Origin: a virus
IMG/VR virus record: IMGVR_UViG_3300036770_000627
Location: 1-22,667 of that record
DNA length: 22,667 bases
Reading direction: 5' to 3' (one strand)
Part shown: positions 1,038-3,413 of the stretch, one piece after another
How the letters are laid out: each line of letters starts with the position of its first letter
Numbering within the stretch: position 1 is the first letter of the stretch
Translations under genes and position numbers: made by a program
The notes under the pieces: model-generated
What the model was told of the DNA's origin: nothing
Database searches by the model: none
The model's input: the letters and a program-made list of their open reading frames with translations, nothing else

Positions 1038-1823
1038 ATGGCTGCAGATCCATTATCTACCCCAACCAATTATAATTTACAAGAAATAAAATCAGCATTT
1101 TTTGAAAACTTGCGCCTACGTTTGGGCGGCGACATTATTGATTTAGAATTAGATCCGCAACATTACGAGGCAGCTTATAATTATGCGATTAAAGTATATA
1201 GACAACGGGCACAGAATGCCACAATAGAAAGTTATTCGTTAATGACTGTAATTAAAAATGTGGACACTTATACATTGCCAAGTGAGTTTATTAATGTTCG
1301 TTCATTGTTTAGACGTACAGTAGGACTTGAAACTGGGCCTAGTTCAACAGCGTTTGATCCTTTCAGTAGTGCCATATTAAACACTTATCTATTAAATTAC
1401 AATTACACAGGTGGTATGGCAACTTATGATTTTTACGCTGGTTATGTAGAATTAGCAGCACGTATGTTTGGTGGTTATGTGACATACACTTTTAACCCAG
1501 TTACCAAAGTATTACGTGTAGTACGTGACTTTAAGGGTACTGGAGAGCGTATATTAATATGGGCTGATATACAAAGACCAGAGATTGAATTACTACAAGA
1601 CCCAGGTGCTGGAGTATGGCTTGGGGACTTTATGTTAGCAGTGCTTAAGGGTATCATAGGTGAAGCCCGTGAAAAGTTTGGCACCATAGCAGGTCCAGGT
1701 GGAGGCACTTCATTGAATGGTGCTGCTATGAAAGCAGAAAGTAAAGAATCACAAGCAGCCTTACTTGACCAACTAAAGAATTATGTAGATTTTTCCCAGC
1801 CCTTGACATGGGTACAAGGTTGA
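1038..1823 (+). CDS. 13: Neck protein, T4 gp13 type
   Basis: The 261-residue product fits the gp13 neck family, which closes the filled head at the portal vertex and joins it to the tail. The N-terminal region has the family pattern: a helix followed by RLGGDIIDLELDPQHYEAAY (residues about 30-50), then an alternating helical segment and a YTLPSEFINVRSLFRR stretch. T4 gp13 is about 309 residues; marine T4-like versions are shorter, so the length fits. The ATG at 1038 is preceded by GAGGA at a normal distance and by a late-promoter core. The last residues are polar, with no obvious extra domain. No gp14 homologue is seen next to it. The assignment rests on remembered family patterns, not a search. 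Confidence 0.75.
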   Translation: MAADPLSTPTNYNLQEIKSAFFENLRLRLGGDIIDLELDPQHYEAAYNYAIKVYRQRAQNATIESYSLMTVIKNVDTYTLPSEFINVRSLFRRTVGLETGPSSTAFDPFSSAILNTYLLNYNYTGGMATYDFYAGYVELAARMFGGYVTYTFNPVTKVLRVVRDFKGTGERILIWADIQRPEIELLQDPGAGVWLGDFMLAVLKGIIGEAREKFGTIAGPGGGTSLNGAAMKAESKESQAALLDQLKNYVDFSQPLTWVQG

Positions 1824-1849
1824 TTCTCACTTGGATTCACGGATAAAGG

Positions 1850-1858
1850 ACTAAATAC
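1850..1858 (+). promoter_or_regulatory. Late-promoter-like core (ACTAAATAC) overlapping the HNH start hairpin
   Basis: ACTAAATAC ends only four bases before the ATG at 1863. A T4-type transcript would start just downstream, at or inside the start codon, giving a nearly leaderless mRNA. The core overlaps the first three bases of the hairpin at 1856-1880. Confidence 0.5.
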
Positions 1859-1880
1859 AAGTATGAAAAACATACTTGTA
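1856..1880 (+). promoter_or_regulatory. Perfect hairpin enclosing the HNH start codon
   Basis: TACAAGTATG (1856-1865) and CATACTTGTA (1871-1880) are exact inverted repeats of 10 bp around an AAAAA loop. The start codon ATG (1863-1865) forms the last three bases of the left arm, so folding would hide it. Read-through mRNA from the neck gene would form the hairpin. A transcript started at the overlapping late-promoter core would lack most of the left arm. T4 phage homing endonuclease genes such as I-TevI are known to be controlled by a start-region hairpin combined with an internal late promoter. That the same happens here is inference. Confidence 0.75.
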
Positions 1881-2693: not shown

Positions 2694-2784
2694 AATAAAA
2701 TGCTATCATTGTAGTAAAGAAGTTGACCACATGAATTTTTCAAGATGGCACGGTGATAATTGTAAACATAAGGATAACAAATGA
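2689..2784 (+). pseudogene. Out-of-frame zinc-finger tail of the HNH endonuclease
   Basis: In the frame one base on from the HNH gene, the DNA encodes PKIKCYHCSKEVDHM followed by NFSRWHGDNCKHKDNK and a stop. The Cys-x2-Cys, then Arg-Trp-His-x-Asp-Asn-Cys, is the zinc-finger pattern that commonly ends phage HNH and GIY-YIG homing endonucleases. This frame has no usable start codon before the first cysteine. It stays open upstream, overlapping the end of the HNH ORF. Its TGA overlaps the kinase ATG (ATGA at 2781-2784), as expected for a real gene end. It could be a frameshift mutation, a sequencing or assembly error, or a programmed shift near GCC-TAA-A at 2688. I cannot tell these apart from one sequence. 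Confidence 0.7.
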
Positions 2785-3413
2785 TTATTGGAATTACAGG
2801 ACTGATTTCGAGTGGCAAGGATACTGTAGCAGATTATCTTTGTACGGTTCATGGGTTTAAACGCATTAGTTTTGCTGGTTCACTTAAAGATGCTGTAGCC
2901 AGTGTGTTTAATTGGGATCGTGAGTTACTGGAAGGCACTACAAAAAGCAGTCGTGAATTTAGAGACCAAATTGACTCTTGGTGGGCAGAGCGTTTACAAA
3001 TTCCACATCTAACACCACGATGGGTATTACAGCATTGGGGCACTGAAGTATTTCGTAATTGTTTTCATCCTGATATATGGGTCGCTAGTGTAGAACACAA
3101 ACTTAAAAGTGCCAAAGATAACATAGTAATTACTGACTGTAGATTTCGCAATGAGATTGAGGCAATTAAAAATGCCGGTGGTATTACAATTCGTATTGAA
3201 CGTGGTATAAGACCTGAATGGTATGACGATGCCGTTGCTCTTAATAAAGGTCCAAGTCAAATAGGTTGGGCTCTTGCTAAAGATAAGCTACTCAAATTAA
3301 ATGTACATGCTAGCGAATATAGTAGTGTGGGGTTAAACTACGACCATTATATTGATAACAATAGCACTATTGATAGTTTACATACTCAGATAAAATCAAT
3401 ATTGAATCTCTAG
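2781..3413 (+). CDS. 1: Deoxynucleoside monophosphate kinase, T4 gp1 type
   Basis: The 210-residue product belongs to the P-loop kinases that phosphorylate dNMPs to dNDPs and feed phage DNA synthesis in the cytoplasm. The Walker A loop GLISSGKDT is at residues 7-15, directly after a hydrophobic strand, as in T4 gp1. The region SFAGSLKDAVASVF (about residues 30-43) matches the substrate-binding helix of the family. A lid-like basic segment follows, with RWVLQHWGTEVFR. A strand ending in IVITDCRFRNEIE (about 115-127) carries the Asp-x-Arg-x-x-Asn-Glu signature. AAGGA lies six bases before the ATG. The start overlaps the stop of the frame-shifted finger, so it is probably translated from the same mRNA as the HNH gene. 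The 3' end overlaps the minus-strand HNH gene by 18 bp. In T4 this gene lies near genes 3 and 2, so its place here is different. Confidence 0.85.
   Translation: MIIGITGLISSGKDTVADYLCTVHGFKRISFAGSLKDAVASVFNWDRELLEGTTKSSREFRDQIDSWWAERLQIPHLTPRWVLQHWGTEVFRNCFHPDIWVASVEHKLKSAKDNIVITDCRFRNEIEAIKNAGGITIRIERGIRPEWYDDAVALNKGPSQIGWALAKDKLLKLNVHASEYSSVGLNYDHYIDNNSTIDSLHTQIKSILNL

Follow-up and report, generated by a model that had tools for sequence, protein, structure and literature searches.

A start-codon hairpin overlapping a late promoter core in a family of phage HNH endonuclease genes

The IMG/VR virus record IMGVR_UViG_3300036770_000627 was analysed over positions 1 to 22,667, and this whole stretch of 22,667 nucleotides (nt) is called the window below. 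Between a neck gene and a deoxynucleoside monophosphate (dNMP) kinase gene, the window carries an open reading frame (ORF) for an HNH-type free-standing homing endonuclease, the ATG of which lies in an inverted repeat that overlaps a late promoter core of the phage T4 type (Table 1). The segment containing the core, the hairpin and the ATG reads actaaatacaagtATGAAAAACATACTTGTA. These features and their conservation within a group of large T4-like phages point to a two-state translation switch, in which the mRNA reading through from the neck gene would probably be locked and only a leaderless late mRNA would be translatable.

Table 1. Features around the start of the HNH endonuclease gene (window coordinates; aa, amino acids).
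Feature	Position	Strand	Remarks
Neck / head-tail adaptor gene (Ad2-like, 261 aa), predicted source of read-through RNA	1038..1823	+	phrog_211, E 4.9e-21
Neck-gene 3' end, TTGACATGGGTACAAGGTTGA, seven codons (copy 1, where the homing site presumably lies)	1803..1823	+	directly precedes all checked HNH members
Degenerate neck-tail copy CTCACTTGGATTCACGGATAA (copy 2; candidate operator)	1826..1846	+	13/21 identical to copy 1
T4-type late core ACTAAATA (TAAATA 1852-1857)	1850..1857	+	conserved TAAATA-N5-ATG; -13..-6 rule
Hairpin left arm TACAAGTATG	1856..1865	+	last three bases are the ATG, 1863-1865
HNH-type free-standing homing endonuclease ORF, 276 aa	1863..2693	+	phrog_3339, phrog_1035
Hairpin loop AAAAA (5 nt)	1866..1870	+	
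Hairpin right arm CATACTTGTA	1871..1880	+	codons 3-6 of the HNH gene
dNMP kinase gene	2781..3413	+	phrog_139, 7.6e-49; directly after the neck gene in many HNH-less relatives

The hairpin over the ATG

The initial annotation of this DNA described a perfect 10-base pair (bp) repeat with an AAAAA loop at the ATG, as well as a late core overlapping its left arm, and both descriptions are borne out: the stem consists of 10 bp with arms that are 100% complementary, the ATG forms the end of the left arm, and positions 1856-1857 are shared by the core and the arm. The folding energy of the RNA from 1830 to 1900, which the same annotation proposed to compute, is -11.8 kcal/mol (z -3.96), and none of the 200 dinucleotide shuffles is equally stable. 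The further claim that the start is hidden in read-through RNA and exposed in late RNA is supported by predicted accessibility, with a probability of the AUG being unpaired of 0.004 in the read-through RNA versus 0.92 in RNA starting at 1863; the respective predicted medians for the family are 0.003 and, for RNA begun at the predicted start, 0.86. The arms of the window hairpin contain no Shine-Dalgarno (SD) sequence, and the sequestered element is the AUG itself.

Conservation and covariation of the stem

Relatives were collected by protein similarity, independently of the hairpin: the window protein retrieved 20, and an alignment of 20 diverse members retrieved 80. Most are metagenomic fragments, and removal of duplicates left 51 distinct start regions. 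Watson-Crick and G-U pairs were counted in stems, with each G-U pair scored half. TAAATA lies exactly 5 nt ahead of the ATG in 49 of the 51 start regions (48 plus L259, after its start was corrected), the exceptions being L266, with a gap of 4 nt, and L305, with TAAATG. A perfect stem of at least 7 bp centred on the AUG is likewise present in 49 of the 51 regions and one of at least 8 bp in 43. When arms are swapped between lineages in which they differ, only 6.3% of the pairs reach 8 bp or more, and synonymous recoding of codons 2-10 yields, on average, 3.9 (at most 9) of 51 start regions with such a stem.

The arm pairs are lineage-specific, namely, ACAAGTATG/CATACTTGT, AAGAGTATG/CATACTCTT, AATAGTATG/CATACTATT and AGTAGTATG/CATACTACT, along with AAAAGTATG/CATACTTTT, AATAATATG/CATATTATT and AGAAGTATG/TATACTTCT. 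Lineages with a shifted register retain a stem as well: in one, the AUG is at the loop (AATAAGAGTA/TACTCTTATT), and another has the form AATACTATT-ATGAA-AATAGTATT. Among the first 14 sequences, the covariation score is 0.197 compared with 0.057 in shuffled data and no more than 0.035 in slid registers. On the protein tree, the two arms repeatedly change together, with pair 5 going from GC to AT three times and double changes at pairs 7 and 8 occurring about six and about five times, respectively, as counted on one tree with one parsimony reconstruction. A mismatched intermediate is also at hand, with A-C in L286 between G-C in L309 and A-T in L287, the proteins being 85-89% identical. Thus, the paired changes that preserve the stem, for which the initial annotation proposed to look among relatives, are clearly present.

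The late core and a class of predicted leaderless genes

T4 late cores occupy positions -13 to -6 (PMC1524935), and ACTAAATA at 1850-1857 is such a core (TATAAATA-like, with the same placement). Because the last A of the core (1857) would be at -6, transcription is predicted to begin at 1863, on the first base of the ATG; this assignment draws on the T4 rule and on the peak of 4-5 nt spacings described below. The late cores of Aeromonas phage Aeh1 are CTAAATA and resemble ACTAAATA (PMC1524935). Late cores in the window are mostly located 16-21 nt ahead of their ATG, compared with 5 nt for the HNH gene. Matches to a gp55-type late sigma factor were found in three of four contigs of relatives, and a late sigma homolog in relatives matches phrog_12791 with E 1e-72.

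Two genomes of jumbo relatives that carry the HNH gene, G001 (333 kb, with loci L111-L127) and G002 (524 kb, with L322-L348), were examined whole, counting TAAATA-to-ATG gaps for ORFs of at least 60 aa and taking the expectation from neighbouring gaps. Gaps of 4-5 nt precede 30 ORFs in the 333-kb genome and 55 in the 524-kb genome, versus approximately 2 and 6 expected; no such peak is seen in T4, RaK2 or PA5oct. Several of these genes match virion structural families. The spacing is therefore a feature of the phage group that fits transcription from the first base of the start codon. An SD-like 4-mer occurs in 1/27 and 0/48 of the genes with gaps of 4-5 nt (0-4%) versus 20/30 and 45/63 of those with gaps of 16-24 nt (67-71%), although the former count is biased low, and the comparison limited, because TAAATA itself occupies positions -11 to -6 in these genes. 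Together with the conserved TAAATA-N5-ATG, this phage-wide class of SD-less genes supports the suggestion of the initial annotation that the late mRNA of the HNH gene would be nearly leaderless, and it indicates that gp55-type control in jumbo phages may extend to many late genes with leaderless messages. In G002, an additional peak is formed by TATAAT at 6 nt, which suggests that there may be leaderless early genes too.

In strength, the HNH hairpin ranks first among the 30 and first among the 55 predicted leaderless late ORFs of the two genomes, so that, as far as the sequences tell, it is the hairpin rather than the spacing that sets the HNH gene apart. In a second homing endonuclease family (the L396 group), most members retain the leaderless promoter, and the stem is present in 0 of 15 cases. 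A third, endonuclease-like family (the L469-L500 group) has TAAATA-N5-ATG and, in 7 of 18 distinct start regions, weaker, partly G-U hairpins over the AUG. A pattern scan for TAAATANNAGTATGNNNNNYATACT also returned non-HNH genes, in most of which the stem is not extended. A protein of 92-94 aa (L158, L128) was considered as a second case of the switch and rejected, given that its distant relatives keep TAAATA-N5-ATG and lose the stem.

The proposed switch

The stem with its conservation and covariation, the fixed spacing, the class of predicted leaderless late genes and the late sigma homolog of the relatives can be read from the sequences, and from these we infer the transcription start, the inhibition of translation and the late leaderless translation. 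Read-through RNA from the neck gene would carry both arms of the repeat, and the stem would bury the AUG or, in some lineages, hold it in a tight loop; with no usable SD on offer in this RNA, the endonuclease would not be made. The late (gp55-type) RNA polymerase acting at TAAATA would start RNA on the A of the AUG, and the resulting transcript, missing 7 of the 10 left-arm bases, would form no hairpin and would be translated as a leaderless mRNA. Given that the neck stop codon is 32 nt upstream of the stem, a ribosome terminating on the neck gene should not melt it.

The neck gene has a late core of its own (TAAATA at 1014-1019, with 18 nt separating it from the start codon), so read-through RNA is expected late in infection as well, and the lock would accordingly keep the endonuclease out of the translation of its host operon, beyond any early/late timing. 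Of the I-TevI-like two-state switch posited in the initial annotation, the lock and the sequestration of the AUG thus hold up, whereas the two states are better described as read-through versus own-promoter RNA and probably not as early versus late alone.

Apart from the bias in the SD count, several observations weigh against the proposed switch. The closest promoter upstream is a late one as well, which weakens a purely temporal early/late switch; the -13 to -6 rule that places the transcription start is borrowed from T4; the core of L305 reads TAAATG rather than TAAATA, and L020 and L259 are without a 7-bp stem. Furthermore, repression may be partial because the stem is rich in A and T, with about -8 kcal/mol across the family.

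The neck-tail copy and alternative explanations

Between the neck stop codon and the late core, at an offset of 23 nt from copy 1, lies the degenerate copy of the neck tail, and most of the HNH-bearing relatives contain one. The best match averages 12.2/21 in the family versus 9.15 in shuffles, and matches of at least 13/21 occur in 55% of the family versus 1.4% of the shuffles and 1 of the 48 loci without the family HNH gene. In I-TevI, autorepression is exerted through an operator that resembles the homing site and lies across the late promoter (PMC2988022). By analogy, copy 2 may serve the endonuclease as an operator for autorepression, although a remnant of the insertion event could have the same appearance. 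A broader scenario, which we put forward only tentatively, is that the element exploits the leaderless late class, with an AUG that would be translated only as the 5' end of a message, longer RNAs excluded, and the homing-site copy allowing self-shutdown.

The strongest competing explanation is that the palindrome itself is a DNA operator, through which a dimeric protein, perhaps the endonuclease, would repress the late promoter, with the RNA hairpin being incidental. The overlap with the late promoter parallels the I-TevI operator (PMC2988022), covariation within a palindrome is identical at the DNA and RNA levels, and the adjacent neck-tail copy hints at autoregulation. However, the half-sites change with compensation among relatives with 77-93% protein identity, which is unusual for an operator, and pairing is kept while the loop length (5, 7 or 9 nt) and the register (AUG in the stem or in the loop) shift. 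G-T pairs are also tolerated at the loop end (12/48), although coding may explain these. On balance, a DNA operator appears unlikely.

Two further explanations assign a different role to the RNA stem, and we regard both as highly improbable. The stem could act as a terminator or attenuator of read-through or as an RNA processing site, but no intrinsic terminator or terminator-like site was found within 1600-2900, the A/T-rich stem is followed by AATATAATAAAC, with no T run, and the centre of conservation is the AUG. Alternatively, the hairpin could aid initiation on the read-through RNA by shortening the distance to an upstream SD, as in the precedents of T4 genes 25 and 38 (PMC3014915), and the clade of the window does have the purine-rich GGATAAGG about 14-21 nt upstream; in this family, nevertheless, the AUG is within the stem or its loop, not beyond the stem, and GGATAA, with which the neck-tail copy ends, varies among lineages. 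The weakest possibility, a stem without RNA function that is a by-product of the late core and the MKxIL start, the latter being almost invariant in the family, is likewise highly improbable: chance and coding constraint are ruled out as the origin of the stem by the recoding and arm-swap controls, and other leaderless late genes, as well as the homing endonuclease family with the same spacing, have no stem.

Comparison with known systems

In I-TevI, I-TevII, I-TevIII, segB and Aeh1 mobE, it is the ribosome binding site that the hairpin hides (PMC2988022), and in T4 genes e, soc and 49, the SD and/or the AUG are sequestered in the long RNA (PMC3014915). With I-TevI, I-TevII and I-TevIII, the HNH element shares a hairpin at the start of an endonuclease gene, a late RNA that would be without the 5' arm and a read-through RNA that would be silent, and the HNH family also has a conserved start-site stem whose 5' arm takes in the late core, as in the switch of the I-TevI/mobE type. 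In contrast, the I-Tev stems hide an SD that precedes the AUG by about 8 nt, whereas the HNH stem holds the AUG and no SD. The gap between TAAATA and ATG is 23 nt in T4 I-TevI and 18 nt in I-TevII, and their late RNA therefore keeps an SD leader; in the HNH gene, the gap is 5 nt. The I-Tev enzymes are, moreover, T4 intron homing endonucleases, whereas the HNH gene, which follows a late structural gene, is free-standing.

Aeh1 mobE and T4 segB are likewise free-standing homing endonucleases with an RNA hairpin at the start, and mobE is an HNH enzyme (PMC2988022); their hairpin sequesters the ribosome binding site, however, and the insertion site differs. No leaderless late RNA of mobE or segB is described in the open-licence literature searched. 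Gene e is similar in having late promoters inside the 5' arm and a freely translated late RNA (PMC3014915), but genes e, soc and 49 are not mobile elements, and the late RNA of gene e retains a ribosome binding site downstream of its start. The lack of an SD and the predicted start on the A of the AUG liken the HNH message to leaderless mRNAs with a 5'-terminal AUG; what differs is that a late sigma factor of the phage would direct initiation and that the leaderless form is the predicted 'on' state of a hairpin switch. A search of the open-licence literature gave no description of this for gp55-type late genes.

The HNH element is thus best described as a variant of the late-hairpin switch of I-TevI, mobE and gene e that guards the AUG instead of the SD. 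The late-promoter hairpins of endonuclease genes described so far hide the ribosome binding site, and a start codon predicted to be locked, with a released message that would have no leader, departs from these. A selfish gene is suggested to use the leaderless route for silence within the transcripts of its host gene. The family lets compensatory changes be read directly, and competition of leaderless mRNAs for ribosomes during infection becomes a testable question.

The homing locus and its surroundings

The HNH ORF matches phrog_3339 (homing endonuclease, 5.2e-7) and phrog_1035 (endonuclease VII, 3.8e-4), and the family has the invariant motifs D-H-I, N-L-R and N..K. Foldseek yielded only a weak match of the protein to Cas9 HNH domains (E 0.13), no sequence relative of the protein was found in the PDB, and a tblastn search gave only distant Campylobacter-phage matches spanning 30% of its length. 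A DNA-similarity search of a phage collection returned short matches only, mostly to the tail sheath and dNMP kinase genes, and no family member was found in the bacterial genomes searched. Family membership and distribution suggest nuclease activity and homing. The family comprises at least 80 loci, and all 57 checked members immediately follow a neck gene with 43-86% identity to the one in the window and hence occupy one homing locus. The majority of neck loci lack the HNH gene and have dNMP kinase or another gene next, with no TAAATA-N5-ATG element, so that the family shows presence/absence polymorphism at this single site. Past the HNH gene, the gene order in the window is dNMP kinase, tail sheath and tail tube.

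Some minor features of the region can be added. Past the HNH stop codon, another frame of window positions 2701-2784 encodes CYHCSKEVDHMNFSRWHGDNCKHKDNK, which is like the in-frame, zinc-finger-like C-terminal tail of L138 and L184 and is probably a frame-shifted remnant of the tail of these longer relatives. In seven HNH-less loci (L026, L030, L034, L040, L063, L073 and L083), the dNMP kinase gene often has a TATAAT-like -10 box about 6 nt before its ATG, an arrangement consistent with a leaderless early gene. In L072 and L080, the neck-tail copy is present and the HNH gene is replaced by an ORF on the opposite strand that, as recognised by eye only, appears endonuclease-like; the 3' end of the neck gene may attract insertions of various homing endonuclease genes.
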